In this document: piece by piece, positions 14,937-42,503 of the stretch | Layout: every line of letters begins with the position of its first letter | Position numbering within the stretch: position 1 is the stretch's first letter | Assembly: GCA_037893245.1 (NCBI GenBank) | Contig: JBAIAA010000317.1 | Span: 124,001-188,000 of the forward strand | Length of the DNA: 64,000 nucleotides | Direction: 5' to 3' | Source of the DNA: Crossaster papposus | Taxonomy: Eukaryota > Echinodermata > Asteroidea > Velatida > Solasteridae | The notes under the pieces: model-generated | The model's input: only the letters and a program-made list of their open reading frames with translations | Told to the model about the DNA's origin: nothing | Database searches by the model: none | Position numbers and translations under genes: made by a program

Positions 14937-15905
14937 TTAGTCTTGAGATCCATTTCTTTGATCATTGTTTTGTTCTTTCAATAGTTCCAATAGAATTTGA
15001 AGATTCTCCTCATCAAGATTTTGTTCCTCTTGGTTGGATTGTGGAGATGCTTTAGTCCTAGATCGAACAAGTTCATCTGTTATGTTTTTGTGCCGTTTGT
15101 ATGCCAGGATGGGTTGGGTATCAAATATCCTATTCAGATATTCGTTTTCGCTAATCAAGGGCCAGTGTTTGAGGATAGCCCGTTTGAGGGCTGGGTGCGC
15201 GACATGTGGGTAGTATGGTAGGACGAACACCAGTGGGATATTGTTTTTGTTTTTTTCACGCTTAGGGTCCGCGGGAGTCTTGCCTCTTTGAGAAAGGAGG
15301 GCTAGGTCTTTGTTTGTGTATCCGCGCTTTTGAAGTTTGTCTTTGAATAATTCAACCCTCTCCTCAAAGTCTTTTAAATGGGTACATATACGTTTGTATC
15401 TGGTCACTTCGCCCTTGATTAATTCGCCAAATACCGACTTAGGGTGTGCTGAATCTCGAGCTATAGGTACTGAAATGTATCATTTTTTTTGGTAGCGACT
15501 CGAGTATCCAATATCTCTTCATATATGAAGATAATAAGGTCGAGAAAAGTGACTTGGCGGTGCGAGATCTCAGACGTGAACTTCAGCGTAGGATGACTTT
15601 TATTAAGTGATTGCACTAGGTCAGCAGCCTGCTTTTCATTTCCGTTAAAGATTATAAGAACATCGTCTCTATATCTCATGTAGCTCACAATTGAGGGATT
15701 GTGAGGGAGGATTTTGTCTTGTTCGTATTTGAATAGGGTTATATGTCACAAATCTCCGGACTGCATTCGCTGCCCATGGCCACGCCAATTTTTTTTCTAA
15801 AAAACTTGCCATTGAATTTAAACGTGTTTCGACGCATAATGAGTTCAAGGAGACTTTGCACGTGGTCTGTCGTGGGCTTGGGTATTGCGTATGAGTCCGT
15901 CCTGA
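14937..15905 (-). pseudogene. Penelope-like element reverse transcriptase, truncated and frameshifted
   Basis: Read on the minus strand, three segments in different frames make up a Penelope-type RT C-terminal half. Segment one, to 15739, has the GVAMGS.CSP motif. Segment two, 15688-15461, has the catalytic box YRDD (RYRDDVLIIF) and 'HPTLKFTSE ... VTFLDL'. Segment three, 15407-14937, begins just after an HPKSVFGELI-type motif and carries LVRSRTK near its end. Frame changes near 15740 and 15460 break it. The N-terminal RT motifs, including the first catalytic Asp, are missing at about 15905, where the CXC fossil of element 2 begins. No GIY-YIG endonuclease follows the RT, so it is either an endonuclease-lacking lineage or 3' truncated. 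Not functional as it stands. Confidence 0.8.
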
Positions 15906-15915
15906 GGCAAGCAAA

Positions 15916-16040
15916 GTGTGCAGAGAACTTTTGCGCTGTGGCTGCACCAAGGGATGTCGAGCTAATTGCAAGTGCATGAAAGCTGCACTGACATGCACAG
16001 CCCTCGGTGTAAATGTGGAGGCTCTTTTTCTTGCTAGTGT
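15916..16040 (+). pseudogene. Fossil CXC domain of the element 2 transposase
   Basis: Plus-strand translation from 15916 gives RCGCTKGCRANCKCMKAALT then CTAL, after which the frame shifts and the next frame supplies C-K-C-GG. The spacing C-x-C-x3-C-x3-C-x-C-x6-C-x3-C-x-C is identical to the C-terminus of the intact element 1 protein (41126-41221). It lies about 170 bp before the right inverted repeat, as in element 1 (about 185 bp). The rest of the transposase is gone, replaced on the left by the Penelope-like RT. Confidence 0.8.
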
Positions 16041-16206
16041 GACGGATTTCCAAGTTTGTTCTTTGGGTGGTTTTTTTTGTTGGGGGGGGGGGGGCTTTTT
16101 TGTTTGCTCAATTAAAACAGGTGAGCAATATTGTGATATCCACTATGTGCAGAGTAGCCAATTAGTCTTTATTCAAGCCTTTGATCCTAAAAATCACCAT
16201 GTGTCA

Positions 16207-16765
16207 CCAGAATAAAGGCTTCATGCCGTTGAGTGCTTTATAGATATGGAATTTATGGCCATGAAGACCACCATTTTGAAGAATAAGGACGCCATTTTCA
16301 AAATGGCGGACCTAATCGTCTGACACAGTCAATAATGCATTTTTTGAACTGTTGGACACGGAAAACATATACATAGCCACTGGAATGAAGATTCTAGGCC
16401 TCTTACTTTCCGAGTTATGTAGTTGTATATCAGAAATGGCGGCCATTTTGGAAAATGAGGACGCCATTTTGAAAATGGCGGACCCAGTCTTCTGACACAC
16501 TCAATAATGCATTTTTTGAACTGTTGGACACGGAAAACATATACATAGCCACTGGAATGAAGATTCTAGGCCTCTTACTTTCCGAGTTATGTAGTTTTGT
16601 ATCAGAAATGGCGGCCATTTTGGAAAATGGCCGCCAAGGCCACCACAGGCAAATTCAGAGATGGCACTATATCTAAAATTTCATGTTTTGGTATAAAGTA
16701 CATGTGTGCCAAGTTTCATGCTTTTACCACAAAGTGCACAACATTTCCTCTTATCCGCTGGACTA
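16207..16765 (-). repeat. Element 2 right inverted repeat
   Basis: Reverse complement of 13322-13900 with the same two subunits and the same terminal TAGTCCAGCGG. A run of 14 G at 16083-16096 lies about 110 bp before the arm. Confidence 0.85.
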
Positions 16766-25859: not shown

Positions 25860-26935
25860 ATGCTCCCGGATAAGTTTGATGGGGTTGCGTCCTGGTCGGA
25901 CTACTTGATCCATTTGGAGTGAGTCCGAGAAGGCAATGTACCTGGCGGCTCACCTGAAGGGCACAGGTCTGGAAGCACTGGTGGACATGGCGCCCGAGGC
26001 ACGGAGGGAATACTCCTCTATCTTGGAGATCTTTGAGCAACGATTCGGCGGGGCGGCACAGGTTCCACTACATCGGGCCCAGTTGTCTATGCGGACGAGG
26101 GGCCGCGACGATTCCCTCAGCAGCCTGGGACAATCCATTCGGCGGCTGGTGTTGAAAAGCTACCCAAGATTGCCTGTGCAGGCCCGGGGTGACTTGGGAG
26201 TGGAGGCTTTCCGGAAGGCCCTGTGGGAGGAGCAGCTGTAGCGTCACCTTTTCTCCAAGAAGGCGGCGACCCTGACCGAAGCCATCACGCTGGTGATGGA
26301 GATGGAAGCGTTCATGGAGTCCCAGGAGTACAAACGGAAAGGGAAGGCCAGAACCAGCGGCGTAATGTCGGTAGACCAGTTTACTCCAGTTCCTGCTAGA
26401 GAGTATCTGTATCTGTATCATATAGTCGGCAAAGCATCCATAGGAAACATCACACCAACTTTTTTTAGTTTTGCGCATTGCGTGGGGGGATGACATCGAT
26501 TCCAAGTATTCCAGTATAAGCCAGTTCCAAGGGTGAAGTATACACCAGACGTGCTGACTCAAGTGGAGTGCTACTGGTGTCATGGTTGGGACACACCGGA
26601 GAGACTGCCCTCGCCGGAAGCGTAAGGCCGCCCCTGACGGGCAGGGTGAGGCGGGCGCGGAACCGGGTCTGGGGCTTGGCGAGCCCGATCCGGGGTGCGA
26701 CCGGCCACTCTCTCCACCGACGGAGCCAGGCCCCGAGAGGTACATTTGCGCCAGCCAGAAGCTAGCCGGTATTGTCTTGCAATAACCGAACCTTCCTCTT
26801 CTCCCCCCCCCCCCCGGAGGAGGGTTCCCGTGATGTACCCCCACTGTGGGAAGGCGTTCACCCGTAGCACCCACCGCCGTAGGCACGTGCGCACCGCGTG
26901 CGATCAGCTCCACCCGGAGCGCCCGTACGTGTAAA
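25860..26935 (+). pseudogene. LTR-retrotransposon gag remnant (Ty3/gypsy-like)
   Basis: The translation has the gag features KFDG ... W..Y at 25870-25910, then YLAAHLKG..LEAL and 'ILEIFEQRFGG' (25936-26090), typical of retrotransposon gag capsid. A zinc knuckle lies at 26565-26620: CYWCHG and THRRDC are in different frames. Near 26830-26930 a C2H-type finger-like stretch (HCGKAF ... RRRHVRTAC) is followed by a stop. Lesions: an in-frame TGA at 25918, a frame change before 25936, TAG at 26239-26241, a 127-bp insertion at 26394-26520 and a frame break in the zinc knuckle. No protease, RT, RNase H or integrase is present, and the 5' end is missing. Non-functional. Confidence 0.7.
26394..26520. 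mobile_element. 127-bp insertion in gag with 8-bp direct repeats
   Basis: An AT-rich segment inside GC-rich gag is flanked by CCAGTTCC at 26386-26393 and 26521-26528. The reading frame on the left resumes in register on the right after one copy of the repeat, showing that this is an insertion. Eight base pairs is the duplication size of hAT and some other DNA transposons; no clear terminal inverted repeat is visible. Confidence 0.7.
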
Positions 26936-28050
26936 GGGGCTGCGGGCTGCGCGGGAGTTCTACCGGGAGGATATTAGGAGCCGTCACTATCGGTTCTGCC
27001 AGGAAGGTTTGGTGGGAGCTCGAGAGGGAGCTCGTCAATCCCGCCGGCCGAGGGCCTTCTCCGCCTCGCCTCTTCCGGCAAAGGAGCCCAGACCTCCCCC
27101 ACGGCGGACGGGACCACCCTGCAGCGGCCCGGCCTTTGTTGCCGCCTCCGCCCAAAAGACGACTGGGCCCAGTTTCGGCGGGGGAGCCGGGGAACCACCC
27201 CCACTTCAAGCGGTCCTCCCGGCATCCCCGTTCGGAGCGGGACGAGTCGGCCAGCCAGCCAAGCCAAGGCCAGAAAGGGCGGATCCGCCGCGCCTACCGG
27301 GGCGCCAGGGATACGGCCGCGGACGCTGCTCCAGCCGGCCGAAGGAAGACAGCCCGGCCAACCCATCCCCGCCAGTGTAAGCTCTGATGTATGTTGTATG
27401 CGGGCGGAAAGCGGGACTCAGACGGACGCCCCCCGGACGCCGACGCTTTGGTGGCGTGGACAGCCCAGGGTCTAATTGCCGGCCGGGTCCCAGGTGGAGC
27501 TGCCGGACGGGACCTGGATGCAGTTGGAGGTGGACGGCGGCCGCCCCGCATGAGGTAAGCGGCAACCCACATGCAGGTTCCCTTGTGTGAACACCCCCGC
27601 GCTACCCCGACGACGTCCCACCGGAGTTCTGGAAGCAGCTGTTTAGGCAGACATAGTTCCAGCGCCGGCCACCTCCCACCTACGAGACGAGAACTTTGAC
27701 TCTCATTTTCCTTTTGTTGTTGTTGTATTGTTGTTGGCGTCGTGCGCCTTCCGGTCCGGGTCTTCCGGGTGCGCGGCGGCAGATGTCCGCCGTCCTGTTT
27801 GGCCGATAGAGAGCACCAGAGCGATTACACGGTGGAATCGCCTAGTGGAGCCCTGCCAGTACGCAACCCGTTCCGGATAGCGCATTCGCCGGACTGTTTT
27901 TAGTGCCGCGTTGGAACGGTAACTTCATGTCACTTGTTTGACCAAGAAGTAGTTTGAATAAACGGCCTAAGAACCACCGAAACCAGTGAATACCTGTCTT
28001 GAGTCTTCTTCCTGTGTGTGTGTCGACCCCAGCAAACGGTCAACGTTACA
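26936..28050 (+). mobile_element. GC-rich LTR-retroelement remainder with LTR-like 3' end
   Basis: The GC-rich stretch continues with proline/arginine-rich open frames on both strands (26898-27380, 27206-27572) that have no recognisable domain and are probably low-complexity remnants. An AATAAA at 27957-27962 is followed about 90 bp later by CAACGTTACA at 28041-28050, a plausible LTR 3' edge. The LTR start is unresolved and no second LTR was found. Confidence 0.5.
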
Positions 28051-34395: not shown

Positions 34396-34707
34396 TATTC
34401 AGATTGCTGTGACTTATTCTATTGTTCTAGACTTGTCATACTGGTATTACCGACGTGCACCTGGCATCTTAAGTCAGATCAATTTCAGAAGTAATATACA
34501 TGTACATACATTCAGTGTATGCATGTCTTGTCCGTCCAATTTCATGAAGAGATGTAATTTTTTTCTCCACAACATGGATGCTTATCTTATTTAAGACCTG
34601 CTTTCTTCAAGATGAAGAGCAATAAGGACAAAAGAGAAACTACAATTTTGTGTTACGTACATGCCAGTTAAATATCACATTTTATTCATCTAGGGCAAAA
34701 ATAACAA

Positions 34708-34871
34708 TTTTGGGGCAGCTTAACCAACATATTTATAACAATTGTGCATTTTATGATAAAAGCATAAAATTTGGCACACATGTACACACTTATATTTTAA
34801 ACAGATTTGGATATTGAGCCATCTCAGATTTGACCCCTGACAGCCACGGCGGCCATTTTCCAAAATGGCTG
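34708..34871 (+). repeat. Element 1 left inverted repeat
   Basis: Pairs with 41413-41565: 'ggggcagcttaaccaa', 'tgtgcatttt', 'ataaaagcat', 'gagccatct' and 'cggccattttccaaaatggc' are shared in order, with small indels. Confidence 0.85.
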
Positions 34872-35009
34872 ACTGTGGTTACTGGTATTTTACTTTCCTG
34901 CTCAGCTGCAGAGTACTTCAGCTTGGCATTTGGATTTTGTTCACCTGTAAAGGTTCAGGAAAGCTCAGGGAAGGATCAATACTTGAATTTGTACAATAAA
35001 AAGCAGTAT

Positions 35010-35052
35010 AATTAGACTAATTAACATAACAATTAACATAATTAGTCTAATT
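35010..35052. repeat. Short hairpin AATTAGACTAATT
   Basis: Inverted repeat AATTAGACTAATT / AATTAGTCTAATT with a loop of about 17 bp in the leader region of element 1. Confidence 0.6.
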
Positions 35053-35223
35053 GGGAACCGTAATTTCACTCGATCCTAGGTAAATCATTTGTTTTGCAAG
35101 CGAGTTCCCCAACAATTAGTTTTTCTCGGTTTATTTATTATTGTGACCAGACACTTTTAGTGTACATATATACCATTCCTTTAAGTCTACTGCCCTCAGT
35201 GGTCTGGAAGTCTGGTCTTACTG

Positions 35224-35236
35224 GTTACCTAGCAAC
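35224..35236. promoter_or_regulatory. RFX X-box-like site
   Basis: GTTACCTAGCAAC fits the RFX consensus GTNRCC-N-RGYAAC exactly. It lies about 170 bp before the proposed 5' splice donor of the element 1 gene, so it could sit in its promoter, but a chance match cannot be excluded. Confidence 0.3.
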
Positions 35237-35404
35237 AACCTTGTGCAGAGTCTTGGTCCTGTCTTGGTTCTTTTGTCTTTGTGTGTGGTCAGACTAACCT
35301 AGAAGTCATTCCACTGGTAACTTCCCTTGTGTGAACATCTTGTGATCAGAATTGTGAGCCTGCAGTATATTTTTGGAGGATTCATCTTAACCCATCCTTG
35401 CACT

Positions 35405-36560
35405 GTGAGTACCTAATTTCTTTCTTATTTCCCAGAGTATTAATTGCTTGACATTTATAAGGAGGTTATAGGATTGCATTATTTTGATAATAATTAGTAC
35501 TACAAAAAGTAAAATGTACTAATAGTTTTTGCTAATTGAGAATTGTTGAAACTGATGATCCGTTTTATGGAAGTTTTGCCAAAGGAACCTACAGTTTTAA
35601 TAGTTTTCTGGGACTTAAATGTACGTCAGGAGTTCCATATATTTGTTGGGAAACTTCAAGTTCATTGAAGATTTAATATTTTGTTATAATTTCCTAATTC
35701 AGTATAATTATTTTCTGTTTTAGTTCAGTTTGTGTTTGACAAAGTTTAGGGTTAATCTAAGTTACTTTTTCTTGTGATATATTCACTGACGCGACGATTT
35801 TATTCTGTTAATTACAGGATATAATGCATCCACCTAGTATCTTTGGGTTTAGTGTTTTCCCCAAACTATTTTATGTACATAATATAGCTGTACCTGTACA
35901 CTGATACTTAGCCCACTTAAGATTTCCAGCGCCATACAGGACAGTTCATTGTCTTTGCCTTGAAACACAGTAGGTAATGGTTATACCAGATGTTGAGACC
36001 TCTCCAGGGTCATAGCTGAGTGCGGAAACAGGGTAGTGTGATATTGATAAACAGCTTAGCTATAGTATATCACACAGCACTGTACTGTCATATCGATATT
36101 GTGTTGCTTGTGGCAGCTGTGTGGAGTGGTTGTGTACAGATAATTGATATGTGATCACTGCATCACCAGTCTACATAGCCTGTGTGGATTGTTTATGTTT
36201 CTAGCTGGCCAAGTTGCAGGCAAGGTCAATCTGTGGCTCATTAGTATGTATTTGTCTTTATGTAGTATTGTATAGGATTGACTAGGGAAAAGTTTTTGTG
36301 ATTTTGCGCAAGCAGGGAGACCAAAGTGCCCTAGTGAATATTTAATTAGGTGCAGGTAAAAACGGCTATCCTTGTTAAAGGGATTTAATAATGTTTCTTT
36401 ATTTGAAGAGTTTATTTTGCTTTGACAAGGTAACTTGTTTTCTTTAACGAAGGAATCCAAGAAGTGTTCTAAGTGATTTATTTGTTTAATTGTTTTATTG
36501 ATTATACCTATGATGTGTACTTATGATTGTTTCTTTTTCTCTTTCTTTCTTTTCATATAG
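35405..36560 (+). other. Candidate 5'-leader intron of the element 1 gene
   Basis: A donor CACT|GTGAGT at 35405 and an acceptor at 36559-36560 (a pyrimidine tract of about 30 nt ending 'tttcatatag') would remove 1,156 bp. That joins an upstream leader to an exon starting 96 bp before the ATG at 36656. The region has no open frame of interest. This is inference from splice-site consensus; no transcript evidence is available. Confidence 0.4.
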
Positions 36561-36655
36561 TCTTATACGCCAACCTTTTGGTGATGGTTGCTGATGGTGA
36601 TGGTTGCTGATGAAGAGATACTGTTTCTAGACTAGGTGTGTTCAGTAATCCAATC

Positions 36656-39600
36656 ATGTCCAGAAGCTTCAAATTGGTTGGCCCTGGTCAACCTGTACCA
36701 TCAACATCCACACACCAAACTAAGACTAACTGGAAGCTGTGTATTATTTGCCAAGAGGACAAGGCAGAGGTACTGACATGTCCTTCACAGTCCAAGCGAA
36801 AAGACATAGGGAGTGGATACAGTTCACTCGCAGAAAACTTGATAAAATTCAACGAACTTGGACAGATTCCTGAAATGCTGGACCGACTCGATGAAGGCCA
36901 TGGCATTGAAGCAGCCATGGTTGCACACAATGCTCAGTATCATCACACATGCAGGCTCAAATACAACAAAACAAAACTACAAAGAGCAGAAAAGAGAGCA
37001 CTCAAGACAGAAGATGAGAGCCATGACATACCAGCAGTATGCAAACGGACCAGGTCATCAAGTACAGAGACACAGGTCCAGGAAGCTTGTTTCTTCTGTG
37101 ATCAACCTGCCGGAACCGATGGGCTTCACGATGCAGCAACCTTTCAACTGGACAAACGGGTTCGGTCTTGTGCCACTCTTCTTGAAGACACAGAGCTGCT
37201 GGGCCGACTCAGTGCTGGGGACATGGTGGCTGTGGAAGCCAAATATCATACCAAGTGCTTGGTGGGGCTGTACAACCGTGCCAGAAAGGCCCAGTCTGAA
37301 GGACATAGTAACACAGAGAAGGAGCGAGAAGTTTCTGGAATCGTCTTTGCCGAGCTGGTCCTGTACATTGACGAGACAAGGCAAGATGAAGAGATGGCAC
37401 CAGTGTTTAAGTTGGCTGATCTTGTCCAGCTCTACCAGTCTAGAATGGAACAGCTAGGAGTCAAACTCGACACAAGGGTCCACTCCACACGATTGAAGCA
37501 GAGACTCTTGGCCCAGTTTCCTGACATGCGGGCACACAGCAAAGGGAGAGACATCCTGATGGCATTTGAAGAAGATGTCGGTGCTGCGCTCACCAAAGCC
37601 TGTGAGCTGGACAGTGACACTGATGCCGTCCATCTTGCACGTGCTGCACAAATTTTGCGTCGCAACATGTTTGGAGAGGCCAAGCCCTTTAATGGATTCC
37701 CCGAAGGATGCCAAGAGGAATCTGTGCCATCACTGCTGCTTGTTTTGGTGAGGATGGTCCTAGAGGGTCCCAGCATTAAGGACCAGATAGCAGACACATC
37801 CCCTGCAGCACTTGCCATTGCCCAAATGCTGAAGTTCAACAGCATCAAACACAAGAGGTCTCATGGTACTACACCACACCAAACTGTCAGGCACAGCACT
37901 ACACAGGAGACACCAGTTCCCATGTATGTTGGGATGATGCTTCATGCTCACACGCGCAAGAGGGAATTGGTAGAAAGGTTGTCGCACCTGGGCATGAGTA
38001 TCTCATATGACCGCGTTCTTCAGCTCTCAGCTCAGATGGGAAACAGTGTCTGTCAACAGTTTCACAGAGAGCAAGTGGTTTGTCCTCCCAAGATGCGTGG
38101 CAAAGTATTCACAACCGCTGCTGTGGATAACATAGACCACAACCCCAGTGCAACAACATCAAAGGAGTCCTTCCATGGCACTGCTATATCCCTCCTTCAG
38201 CATCCCTCCTACCCTGATGAAGGAGTGGATCGAAGCATTGTCATTGGTTCAGAATCTGGTGATGCAAGATCCAGCACTATTGCTCACTTGCCACACTACT
38301 ACACTGACGTGCCCCCTGTCACTGGCAGCATCAAAAGGCTGCCTCTCCCAGCTGCTAGAGTTGCGTCGTTGACCAGAGACAACTTCAGACAGCACACTGA
38401 GGAGGAATATCAGTGGCTACATCACACAAAGTGGGCCCTGGAGGACAAGACTGAGACAGAAGATAACACTTCTTGGGCAGCATTTCATGCCAACCGGCAG
38501 CATCCACCAACTCGAGTCATCTGCCCCACTGCTCTGCTTCCACTTTTCCTAGACAGTGCCCATACAGTGGCTATGATCCGACACTCAATGGATGTCATAA
38601 AAAATGCTGTCCAGCACCTGAATCCAGGGCAGACACCAGTGATTACCTGTGATCAACCACTCTTTGCCTTGGCCAAGCAAATTCAGTGGAAGTGGCCGGA
38701 GAGCTATGGTGAAGACAAGATGGTGGTGATGTTTGGTGGGCTACACATTGAGATGGCAGCACTGAAGACTCTGGGGGACTGGCTGCAAGGGAGCGGCTGG
38801 GTGCAAGCCTTGGTGCAAGCTGAGATAGCGACGTCAGGGACGGCTGACTCCTTCCTACGGGCAGCTCATGTTGCCCGCACAAGGAGAGCTCACCAAATCA
38901 CCGCAGCAGCACTGTATATCCTGCAACACCGTGCATATGACCGCAACTGTCTGAGCAAAGCCGAGCATGCAGAAGATCTCCCAGAGTTTGATGACTGGTG
39001 CCACCAGAAAGAAGACATCCCACAGTTTCAATACTGGGCAACAGTGCTAGAACTTGAGATGTTGGTACTGGTGTATGTGCGTTCTCTGCGGCAGGCATCA
39101 CTGACAATGTACCTTGATGCCCTGACAGAACTGGCCTCTTGGTTCCATGCCCTAGACCACACTAACTATGCCAGGTGGATCCCTGTCCATCTGAAAGACA
39201 TGGCTGAACTCCCCACAAAGCACCCAGACGTAGCCCGGGAATTCAGGGCTGGCAGTTTCACTGTACAGAAGACAAAGAAGGTGTTCTCTTCAATCCCGAT
39301 TGACCAGGCCCATGAACAGAATAATGCCTGCATCAAAGGAGACGGCGGAGCAGTTGGCCTCACTGACAACCCCAATGCTCTGCTGCGTTGGATGGTTGCT
39401 GGACCAGAAGTTGCCAGGGCCATAGAAGAGTTCCAAGAATGCCACCAGCATTTTGGCAGGCAAACAAACACACGTCATCATGACCAGACACCAAGCGTGC
39501 AAATCTCATTTGCTAAAGATGTTCGCTCCCTTGTCAGTGTGATAGAAGACCTTGGCAACCCATTTGAAGAAGAGAGCATGGATCTGGTTGTCCTTGACAC

Positions 39601-41227
39601 AAAGGAAATTGCGGGCCCTGCTGCAGTTGAGACTGTCCGGAATGTCAAGAGGATCGGCCAAGAGCAGTTCCAGGCTTTCACCAAAGAATGCCTGCTGGAA
39701 AGAACGAAGCCCATTGATGATGCTATTCATCGAAACAAACTGAAGGTGTTCAGTACTTCCACCACTAGAAGTGTGAGTAAAGGAAAGCAGCAGCTGTCCT
39801 CTCTCAAGAATAACATGGAGCTCTTTTCAAGGCTTTACATTGGTTGCCAGACGAGGGAAGGAAACCTTGAGGAGTTCTTTCGTCATGAGAATCAAGCATG
39901 CCCTCCAGCACTCTCTGATGGAGGAAGCCTCCGCTTAGGTACAAAAAGTGACCTCCTCACATGCTTGGAAGACCTGTCTGATGCCAAATTACAGGCTCCA
40001 ACCACTACCAGTGTAGTTCTTGATGGAGCAGTCATCGTACAGATGCTGAAGCCAGCTACAGCAAAGAACTTTGGCAAGTATGCTGAAGATATATTCATCC
40101 CATACATTTCCACAAAGCTTCAAACTGCAAAACGACTGGATCTTGTGTGGGACAGCTATTTTGCTGATTCACTGAAAGGCACTGCAAGAGCAAAGCGTGG
40201 ACAGGGAGTGCGCAGGCGTGTGATGGCTGGGGTAGCAATACCAGGAAACTGGCAGAACTTCCTCAGAGTGGACAGCAACAAGACACAGCTGTTCACATTT
40301 CTATCTGAAGCTCTTCTCAAGTGGTTTGAACAGGAAGACAAACAGCTTGTGATCACTGATGGAGAGGCAGTCCAAAGCAAGCCACCACTGCAGGATACTA
40401 CATCCCTCACCCCATGCAGCCATGAAGAGGCAGACAGTCGCATGTTGCTGCATGCATACCATGCAGCCCAGCATGGCCACCACACGATCATGATCCGAAC
40501 TGTTGACACTGATGTTGTGGTATTGGCTGTATCAGTAGCGCAGCGGCTGCAACCAGAAGATGAACTGTGGCTAGCATTCGGAACTGCCAAGGGTTTCCGT
40601 TACCTGGCAGCCCATGAGCTAGCAGCTGGCCTGGGACCGGAGAAGGCACGAGCACTGCCAATGTTCCATGCTCTGACTGGGTGTGACACTGTGTCCAGTT
40701 TTGCAGGGCATGGTAAGAAGACTGCATGGGCAATCTGGACTGTGATGCCAGAACTAACAGAAGCTCTGCTGAAACTGTCCTCTGCACCAAATGACATACC
40801 AACAGAAGTAATGCAAACCATTGAGCGGTTTGTCATCCTACTGTATGACAGAACAAGCAAGTGCAAGGACATCAACAAGGCGAGAAAGAAACTATTTGCA
40901 AATAAGCACAATGTGCAGCTGATCCCGCCAACCAAGGCAGCACTGGAGCAACACATCAAGAGGGCAGCCTACCAGGGAGGCCATGTGTGGGGCCAAGTAC
41001 TGCTTCCAGCACCAGAACTGCCTTCACCCACCAGCTGGGGATGGGCAAAGAATGATGATGGGTTGTATGAACCACACTGGACAACTCTACCCGAAGCAGC
41101 CAACACCTGCTATGAACTAGTGTCCTGCAAGTGCAAAAAGGCTTGTGTGGGGCGTTGCAAATGCAAAAAGGCTGGACTGGAATGCACAGCTCTGTGTGTG
41201 TGTGAAGGCGACTGCTCACAGAAATGA
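36656..41227 (+). CDS. Academ-like transposase with XPG-type nuclease and CXC domain, 1,523 aa
   Basis: Start chosen at the ATG 36656 (A at -3); the open frame extends six codons upstream to a GTG, not expected to initiate. Domains by residue: two N-terminal zinc modules of form C-x2-C ... H-x2-C (C29/C32 with H96/C99; C145/C148 with H198/C201). A conserved core follows at about 485-930 with VDNIDHN (D491, D494), TCDQPL (D666), GLHIEMA (697), LDHTNYARW (834) and IDQAHEQNNACIKGDGG (883-897). D491 or D494, D666 and E887 are my candidates for the DDE triad. A PIN/XPG-like domain spans about 1115-1420: LDG (D1123), WD.Y (D1166), HEEADSR (E1257, E1258, D1260), TVDTDVVVL (D1284, D1286) and LTGCDTVSSF (D1344). 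A CXC domain lies at 1491-1520. It probably excises and inserts element 1 in the nucleus, zinc and CXC modules binding the termini. No stop, frameshift or intron occurs in the coding part. Academ assignment is from memory of the family and moderately sure. Confidence 0.8.
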   Translation: MSRSFKLVGPGQPVPSTSTHQTKTNWKLCIICQEDKAEVLTCPSQSKRKDIGSGYSSLAENLIKFNELGQIPEMLDRLDEGHGIEAAMVAHNAQYHHTCRLKYNKTKLQRAEKRALKTEDESHDIPAVCKRTRSSSTETQVQEACFFCDQPAGTDGLHDAATFQLDKRVRSCATLLEDTELLGRLSAGDMVAVEAKYHTKCLVGLYNRARKAQSEGHSNTEKEREVSGIVFAELVLYIDETRQDEEMAPVFKLADLVQLYQSRMEQLGVKLDTRVHSTRLKQRLLAQFPDMRAHSKGRDILMAFEEDVGAALTKACELDSDTDAVHLARAAQILRRNMFGEAKPFNGFPEGCQEESVPSLLLVLVRMVLEGPSIKDQIADTSPAALAIAQMLKFNSIKHKRSHGTTPHQTVRHSTTQETPVPMYVGMMLHAHTRKRELVERLSHLGMSISYDRVLQLSAQMGNSVCQQFHREQVVCPPKMRGKVFTTAAVDNIDHNPSATTSKESFHGTAISLLQHPSYPDEGVDRSIVIGSESGDARSSTIAHLPHYYTDVPPVTGSIKRLPLPAARVASLTRDNFRQHTEEEYQWLHHTKWALEDKTETEDNTSWAAFHANRQHPPTRVICPTALLPLFLDSAHTVAMIRHSMDVIKNAVQHLNPGQTPVITCDQPLFALAKQIQWKWPESYGEDKMVVMFGGLHIEMAALKTLGDWLQGSGWVQALVQAEIATSGTADSFLRAAHVARTRRAHQITAAALYILQHRAYDRNCLSKAEHAEDLPEFDDWCHQKEDIPQFQYWATVLELEMLVLVYVRSLRQASLTMYLDALTELASWFHALDHTNYARWIPVHLKDMAELPTKHPDVAREFRAGSFTVQKTKKVFSSIPIDQAHEQNNACIKGDGGAVGLTDNPNALLRWMVAGPEVARAIEEFQECHQHFGRQTNTRHHDQTPSVQISFAKDVRSLVSVIEDLGNPFEEESMDLVVLDTKEIAGPAAVETVRNVKRIGQEQFQAFTKECLLERTKPIDDAIHRNKLKVFSTSTTRSVSKGKQQLSSLKNNMELFSRLYIGCQTREGNLEEFFRHENQACPPALSDGGSLRLGTKSDLLTCLEDLSDAKLQAPTTTSVVLDGAVIVQMLKPATAKNFGKYAEDIFIPYISTKLQTAKRLDLVWDSYFADSLKGTARAKRGQGVRRRVMAGVAIPGNWQNFLRVDSNKTQLFTFLSEALLKWFEQEDKQLVITDGEAVQSKPPLQDTTSLTPCSHEEADSRMLLHAYHAAQHGHHTIMIRTVDTDVVVLAVSVAQRLQPEDELWLAFGTAKGFRYLAAHELAAGLGPEKARALPMFHALTGCDTVSSFAGHGKKTAWAIWTVMPELTEALLKLSSAPNDIPTEVMQTIERFVILLYDRTSKCKDINKARKKLFANKHNVQLIPPTKAALEQHIKRAAYQGGHVWGQVLLPAPELPSPTSWGWAKNDDGLYEPHWTTLPEAANTCYELVSCKCKKACVGRCKCKKAGLECTALCVCEGDCSQK
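41126..41215 (+). other. CXC domain of the element 1 transposase
   Basis: Nine cysteines at residues 1491, 1493, 1497, 1501, 1503, 1510, 1514, 1516 and 1520 in the pattern C-x-C-x3-C-x3-C-x-C-x6-C-x3-C-x-C-x3-C. This resembles one half of a tesmin/TSO1-type CXC domain, which binds DNA through a zinc cluster. Confidence 0.8.
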
Positions 41228-41412
41228 CTTTCTTACCACAATTTTAGGCAGATTTTGAGCGCCACCTTGAAGCAATTCAAAATATTGACCTCGGAGGATA
41301 TTGTTACCATAAAAATTGGCTTTGGCACCTCCAAATCTATATAAATAGACACCAAGAACATCAATATTGATCAACTGTGTGTAATTCTATGCTCAAATCA
41401 ATTTCACATAAC

Positions 41413-41565
41413 GCGATTGGCGGCCATCTTGGAAAATGGCCGTCCAAGACCAAATTTGGGATGGCTCAATATCTATATCTGCTTACTATCTATCCATCTA
41501 CACCTCTGCCAATTTTGGTGCTTTTATCACAAAATGCACAATAGTTTGGTTAAGCTGCCCCACTA
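41413..41565 (-). repeat. Element 1 right inverted repeat
   Basis: Inverted partner of 34708-34871, beginning about 185 bp after the transposase stop. No canonical AATAAA was seen between the stop and this arm. Confidence 0.85.
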
Positions 41566-41744
41566 ATGTATATATACTGTTACTCTCAAACAAACAAAAC
41601 TAAAAAAAATGTACAGTAAAAACGAAACAGCTGCAGTGTGTTCACATTATAATGCAGATTTAGTGGATATTTCTGCTTTGATACTGAACCATACAAAGCT
41701 GCATTAGGGACATGGCAAAAATAATTAATTTCTCTCACTTCAGC

Positions 41745-42237
41745 TAACTCGTACGTAGGACTTGCATGTCCAACGTAGAACTCGCATGTCGTACGTAGGA
41801 CTCGCATGTCCCACGTACGACTCGCATGTCCCACGTACGACTCGCATGTCCCACGCACGACTCGCATGTCCCACGCACGACTCGCATGTCCCACGCACGA
41901 CTCGCATGTCCCACGCACGACTCGCATGTCCCACGCACGACTCGCATGTCCCACGCACGACATGCAAGTCCCACGCACGACATGCAAGTCCCACGCACGA
42001 CATGCAAGTCCCACGCACGACATGCAAGTCCCACGCACGACATGCAAGTCCCACGTACGACATGCAAGTCCCACGTACGACATGCAAGTCCAACGTACGA
42101 CATGCAAGTCCAACGTACGACATGCAAGTCCTACGTACGACATGCAAGTCCTACGTACGACATGCAAGACCTACGTACGACATGCAAGTCCTACGTACGA
42201 CATGCAAGTCCAACGTACGACATGCAAGTCCTACGTG
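41745..42237. repeat. 20-bp minisatellite, about 24 units
   Basis: A strict 20-bp period runs from 41745 to 42237. Left units read ACTCGCATGTCCCACGCACG; right units read ACATGCAAGTCCTACGTACG, with intermediates in order between. Because 20 is not a multiple of 3 but no frame of the unit contains a stop, several overlapping frames on both strands remain open for 127-193 codons (MHVVRGTCMSCVGLACRAWD type). I regard these as non-genic. Confidence 0.95.
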
Positions 42238-42503
42238 AGCATGTTTTGTTTATGATATGCAGATGAGTTGAAAAAATGATACCTTCTTGGTCTGTCAAGT
42301 TTGTAGTCATTCTATGATTATAATAAAAGAAAGAGTAATTTGTTTTTAAAATGCAAGGCAAAGAATTTACAAAAAAAGGGAAAAAAATTAAATAAAAAGT
42401 TAACTTTAAGATGACGTCATCATAACATGTGTAAATAGACACAAAGTACTGTAATACTAATTTCAGAGTCAGTTGGAGTATGTGCAAACTGCAAAGTTTC
42501 ATG

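Follow-up and report, generated by a model that had tools for sequence, protein, structure and literature searches.

A locus in the genome of the asteroid Crossaster papposus raises the question of how a transposon that appears to encode a DDE-type transposase core and a nuclease-like module in one protein divides the work of transposition between the two. The locus lies in a stretch of 64,000 nucleotides, hereafter the window (GenBank assembly GCA_037893245.1, contig JBAIAA010000317.1, positions 124,001 to 188,000 of the forward strand), where it occupies positions 34711-41565 of the plus strand, 6,855 bp in all. The element is mobile, has defined termini, duplicates 3 bp of its target, and keeps both modules conserved and under selection within a single protein. 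We consider it highly probable that it is a DNA transposon of the AcademX type that has moved in recent times, with zinc modules, a DDE-type core, and a FEN1/XPG-like module combined in its one protein. The accessory nuclease of AcademX transposons is of the XPG type.

Copies, termini, and target duplication

With a 193-bp query from the left end, a search of the 1.02 Gb genome gave 470 candidates, of which 40 places were scored. Nineteen of them, including the window copy, match at 90-100% identity, and the other 21, at 72-78%, probably belong to other families. All 19 loci of the closer class were fetched. Besides the window copy (L009, contig C317), they include a second full copy (L010, contig C1156), which lies in unlike flanking DNA and over 34711-41565 differs from the window copy at only 2 positions in 6,855 bp, one of them silent (codon 669) and the other a replacement (N1416K). 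Because a full copy with other flanks is so nearly identical, we conclude that transposition was recent. The remaining 17 loci are internally deleted; their aligned pieces are about 91-99% identical to the element, with 79% identity where one inverted repeat is aligned to the other.

At the protein level, at least 39 places in the genome match the element (31 scored of 2,707 candidates), at 44-100% identity, and relatives of the protein within the genome are 44-69% identical to it. Full-length frames free of stops are found in the window copy, in L010, and in a family of 68% identity (contigs C193 and C855), and a 45% relative on C684 has a stop-free frame over residues 21-1518. The two copies of the 68% family also lie in unlike flanks, with 5' parts identical over 1,264 bp and 3' parts 99.8% identical over 536 bp. 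The first-pass annotation had called the element a DNA transposon and proposed a genome search for copies with the same termini. That search bears it out: the element has many copies with common ends, different flanks, and target duplications, and is not a single-copy, syntenic gene lacking inverted repeats.

Outside this genome, no relatives were found in viral contigs, bacterial and archaeal genomes, or phages, in collections that may omit records near this genome. These viral, bacterial, and archaeal scans relied on two to six short peptide patterns, which miss distant relatives, and the bacterial/archaeal scan and one of the viral-contig scans were built on a three-sequence alignment. A weak match to a plasmid (E 0.04, spanning 10% of the query) was judged to be due to chance. 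Within the window, a translated match to the cysteine-rich tail of the protein (residues 1479-1515, 57%, 1.2e-8) lies at 15901-16330 and is followed by a CCATTTT..AAAATGG palindrome which, by eye, resembles the inner inverted repeat; this is probably what is left of the right end of a related element.

The exact ends were read from L010, which is inserted inside a repeat of which four empty copies could be aligned. Three of these read CCAATAGCC-TAG-TTGG, and the fourth has a single-base change (CCAATAGCA-TAG-TTGG). In the filled site, CCAATAGCC-TAG is followed by TAGTGGGGCAG...CTGCCCCACTA and this in turn by TAG-TTGG. From the comparison of filled and empty sites it follows that insertion duplicates 3 bp, here the target TAG, and that TAG and CTA are the first and last bases of the element, whose complete termini are TAGTGGGG...CCCCACTA. 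The 68% family also begins with TAGTGGGG, and its two copies carry ATG and TAC duplications. A TA duplication flanking GTGGGG ends was considered as well and is ruled out by the empty site of L010 and by this second family.

In the window copy, the boundaries 34711 and 41565 equal those of the independent, 99.97% identical copy and agree with the empty sites. The left terminus is 3 bp short, since both the sister copy and the 68%-identical family begin with TAG; the start, originally placed at 34708, is corrected to 34711, and 34708-34710 (TTT) is host flank. The description of the copy as intact is therefore right for the gene and for the right end, which keeps its CTA, but not for the left end, and the suggestion that it may be autonomous must be qualified by the loss of the left terminal TAG. 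The left inverted repeat (34711-34869, plus strand) begins TGGGGCAGCTTAACC and ends in a small CCATTTT/AAAATGG palindrome, and the right one (41423-41565, minus strand) begins TAGTGGGGCAGC in reverse complement. These repeats, first reported as about 155 bp long, are imperfect, span about 150 bp, and pair in three pieces in an inverted-repeat search, with arms at 34704-34733/41540-41569 (83%), 34737-34846/41437-41546 (75%), and 34850-34869/41423-41442 (95%). Between the left repeat and the start codon, the non-coding region at 34870-36655 (plus strand), judged purely by its position, probably comprises the promoter and 5' leader. The transposase gene (36656-41227, plus strand) has the 1,523 lesion-free codons initially reported for it, from an ATG at 36656 that aligns with the ATG of the 68%-identical family to a stop at 41225-41227, with no internal stops. 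The target repeat around the element (34561-34710 and 41563-41712) has at least about 30 uninterrupted copies elsewhere, and a tandem array with a 20-bp unit (registers spaced 20 bp apart) runs over 41666-42285, about 100 bp beyond the right end of the element.

Altered junctions and their possible origin

Both ends could be read in 13 insertions (L009, L010, L011, L012, L013, L014, L017, L019, L021, L025, L027, C193, and C855). Left out were L015, the right part of which is replaced, L016/L018 (a single insertion) and L020, the right ends of which were not found, and C694, for which the fetched stretch contained no left end; L022-L024 and L026 were grouped with L021, as they share the same sequence adjoining the element. 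A perfect 3-bp duplication flanks seven of the 13 insertions. Complete TAG and CTA ends are present in six, and every one of these six has a perfect duplication (TAG, CAA, TAA, CCT, ATG, and TAC). The terminal triplet is altered in the other seven. One of them, L027 (right end ATA), still has the duplication AAA, and the remaining six of the 13 insertions, all with altered termini, have no duplication. Complete ends and duplication are associated across the 13 insertions (Fisher P 0.005, in a test devised after the pattern was seen). Altogether, alterations affect 9 of the 26 ends and 13 of the 78 terminal bases, an excess with a post hoc P of 1.3e-5 if 4% divergence is assumed and of 0.009 if 8% is assumed.

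Empty sites account for four of the six duplication-free insertions. In L009, the copy in the window, the left end has lost its TAG and about 42 bp of the adjoining target, and the right CTA is kept, as judged from four aligned empty loci. L013 has lost its right CTA together with the duplication and no target DNA (three empty loci). At the right end of L017, the A or TA is missing along with 3 or 4 target bases, the ambiguity arising from one shared T (three empty loci). L014 lacks TA at the left, A or TA at the right, and about 33 bp of target (two empty loci). As for the other two duplication-free insertions, L011 has no clear empty site and L012 sits in a diverged tandem repeat, as read by eye. 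L019 has no empty site in this assembly. The target of L017 is likewise a tandem repeat, with a spacing of about 120-126 bp and 602 matches in one search (C504, C745, C1235, and others). For L009 and L014, the target repeat may already have lacked the missing bases before insertion, although the terminal losses of the element itself argue against this alternative. Given the near identity of the window copy to L010, its left end was probably lost at or soon after insertion. The junction pattern of this family is unusual, and it is testable.

What produced these junctions can be explained in at least two ways. A serious rival to the mechanism that we propose below, with a chance only a little short of even, is that they are scars of abortive excision, in which the transposase cleaves at a single end, the break is rejoined by the host with a small loss, and the nuclease of the element plays no part. 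In its favour, three of the four junctions with empty sites are altered at one end only (L009 at the left, L013 and L017 at the right), with loss of terminal bases and the duplication. However, both ends of L014 are short of terminal bases, the 2 differences in 6,855 bp between the window copy and its sister leave little time for a later excision event, and the loss in L013 amounts to exactly the terminal 3 bp plus one 3-bp duplication. This last loss is what would be expected from the removal of a single-stranded stretch of 6 bases.

The other explanation, which we put forward tentatively, makes the nuclease-like module responsible. In the catalytic roles and the order of steps that we infer, the zinc modules probably recognise the inverted repeats, and the DDE-type core would cut at the TAG/CTA ends and join the 3' ends to the target strands with a stagger of 3 bp. 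The FEN1/XPG-like module would most likely trim the 5' flaps on the non-transferred strand after strand transfer, and host polymerase and ligase would then fill and close the 3-bp gaps. Overshoot of the trimming, or failed filling, would yield junctions without terminal bases and duplication. Overshoot could thereby account for insertions that have lost the duplication and between 1 and 3 terminal bases, along with 0 to about 42 bp of the target. These copies may be disabled at their ends, in which case the nuclease would both complete new copies and sometimes sterilise them.

The protein and its kinship

The protein was aligned with its relatives in a set of eleven sequences, mostly fragments, which came from the window and from six further loci in the same genome. 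The zinc-like cysteines and histidines, D491/D494, D666, E887, the C-terminal acids, and the CXC tail are all located at the residues where the first-pass annotation had placed them, and every acid that it named is invariant in the family rows that cover it (6 or 7 rows each). Two C2HC-like modules (C29, C32, H96, and C99; C145, C148, H198, and C201), encoded at 36740-37258 on the plus strand, as are the features below, would bind zinc; none of the 3 to 7 rows that cover each of their residues departs from it. The putative DDE core comprises residues 471-920 (38066-39415), with D491, D494, H495, D666, and H697 the same in 6/6 covering rows and D883, H886, and E887 in 7/7. In the XPG/FEN1-like module, residues 1111-1400 (39986-40855), D1123 and D1166 are the same in 6/6 rows, E1257, E1258, D1260, D1284, D1286, and D1344 in 7/7, and H1256 in 6/7. 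The cysteine-rich tail of CXC type runs from C1491 to C1520 (41126-41215); C1491 to C1503 are the same in 7/7 rows and C1510 in 6/7, and the last cysteines are covered by 5, 1, and 0 rows. In comparison with the 68% family, the core has a dN/dS of 0.085 (bootstrap 0.049-0.135) and the nuclease-like module one of 0.12 (bootstrap 0.064-0.179), values that are approximate since dS is about 2, near saturation, and part of the bootstrap samples was unusable. By these estimates, both modules are under purifying selection.

We file the element under AcademX because its 3-bp duplication and its nuclease-like module match features stated for that group; the duplications fit the 3 or 4 bp of AcademX and not the 9 or 10 bp of AcademH, as these are given in passages of PMC10045372. 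Several results weigh against our reading, the near-saturated dS and the six insertions without duplication among them. The window protein has no Pfam match at E up to 1 and no match in PDB, with either its sequence or the family profile, and single-sequence structure predictions of residues 471-920 and 1043-1523 were uninformative (mean pLDDT 34). Insignificant matches were all that NCBIfam returned. DUF6589, which we take to be the Academ transposase, is matched by one of the eleven family sequences (L032), at 20.1 bits for a cut-off of 27, and when the core was compared with two DUF6589 proteins of the genome, the result was not significant (3 and 4 of 100 shuffles reached the score), although the register was plausible. 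The core is thus weakly linked to a named transposase family.

These same results leave some room for a transposase of a non-Academ superfamily, for example a separate CXC-tailed lineage, that acquired a FEN1-like nuclease independently, which we think unlikely. Besides the missing Pfam match and the weak DUF6589 link, such a lineage would suit the distribution of DUF6589 in the genome, where at least 112 matches over the cut-off (including some that are parts of a single gene; 334 candidates, 102 of them scored) and the places listed for this transposon family occupy separate positions, as checked on the contigs that they share. However, a DDE-like core, a nuclease, and a 3-bp duplication form the very combination stated for AcademX, and the DUF6589 match of L032 falls on the stretch carrying the equivalent of E887. 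One DUF6589 protein of the genome, L061 (1,042 aa), has PHD-like cysteine clusters, seen by eye, inside its DUF6589 stretch.

Ordered metal-binding acids and a helix-turn motif define the FEN1/XPG nucleases, and FEN1 has an E-x-E motif and a free N-terminus. The module of the element has these acids in order (D1123; D1166, followed by SLK..R.KR; E1257/E1258/D1260; D1284/D1286) and the helix-turn motif (D1344 with G.GKKTA), one of the seven canonical acids not being exactly aligned by eye. The profile searches against Academ and XPG families advocated in the first-pass annotation succeeded in part: Pfam gave no match for the window protein, but one of two FEN1/EXO1 comparisons did. With an enlarged template, in which human FEN1, yeast RAD27, and human EXO1 joined four archaeal FEN1 (realignment off), the module gave a local score of 40.4 (pairwise P 7.8e-5), which none of 100 column shuffles reached (maximum 24.0). 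Here, too, some results pull the other way. Against the four archaeal FEN1 by themselves the match was not significant (E 0.27), the significant local match to the enlarged template covers only about residues 1340-1393 (GCD...G.GKKTA, the D1344 helix-turn region, and what follows), and the global alignment, which pairs VWD...SLK..R.KR with VFDG...LK...KR of FEN1, misplaces the middle. Pfam XPG_I is matched by none of the eleven family sequences at E up to 5, and the 13 XPG_I matches of the genome lie elsewhere than the listed places of this family. From motif order and profile score, FEN1/XPG kinship is likely, not proven, and the claim of a FEN1/XPG-like C-terminal module holds in that sense.

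Whether the module still cleaves DNA is a separate matter. It may no longer be a nuclease and may have only a binding or structural role, which we regard as quite improbable. The first glutamate of the FEN1 E-x-E falls, by eye, on H1256, and the module is internal and thus without the free N-terminus of FEN1. However, all the other acids are the same in 6/6 or 7/7 covering rows, and purifying selection on the module is about as strong as elsewhere in the protein. Finally, although one long intact frame under purifying selection might suggest a domesticated host gene flanked by repeats through chance, the probability of this is virtually nil in view of the many copies with common ends, different flanks, target duplications, and internally deleted derivatives, and the existence of another full-length copy, inserted in a target repeat of its own, refutes it.

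Two other open frames of the window are a 735-aa frame at 190-2397 with a reverse transcriptase domain (RVT_1, 2.3e-37) and a 281-aa frame without a Pfam match on the minus strand at 26068-26913, in a G+C-rich island (61.6% in 26001-28000).

Relation to known systems

The likeness of the element to AcademX, as drawn from the published description, consists of the nuclease-like module and the 3-bp duplications (PMC10045372). In the same source, the lengths of the duplications in AcademX and AcademH are seemingly tied to the encoded helicase or nuclease; AcademH, a member of the same superfamily, differs from the present element by its helicase and its longer duplications, and a Pfam scan of the window protein found no helicase family. 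The AcademX passages of that source are silent on the two zinc modules, the CXC tail, and the trimmed junctions, all of which are features of this element. Academ elements are also well known from bivalves, for which a passage of PMC10294476 reports a curated library with 100 of them, of a mean length of 5,565 bp. Our literature search found no study on the role of the Academ nuclease in transposition, with most subscription journals outside its reach, so that the absence of such work is unproven.

Other transposons with a DDD/E transposase have likewise taken up accessory nucleases of various kinds, as described for KolobokE, KolobokD, and KolobokP in part of PMC9587614. These lineages differ from the element in their nuclease folds and in belonging to another transposase superfamily. 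With the Rad2 nucleases FEN1, EXO1, and XPG, the module has in common the order of the acid motifs, the basic SLK..R.KR after D1166, and the GCD...G.GKKTA helix-turn motif. Unlike them, it is located inside a transposase, lacks a Pfam XPG match, and by eye has a histidine for the first glutamate of E-x-E.

A functional parallel is phage Mu, which itself encodes the activity that clears 5' flaps from the ends of a new insertion ahead of gap repair (PMC3325207). This is the job proposed here for the nuclease-like module; the gaps of Mu are 5 bp, and the passages on MuA in that paper mention no FEN1-type domain. With a near-identical recent pair of copies, defined termini and duplication, and two natural kinds of insertion, the family makes the division of labour between core and nuclease testable. 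If the trimming that we propose is true, the element would provide a eukaryotic parallel to the flap removal of phage Mu.

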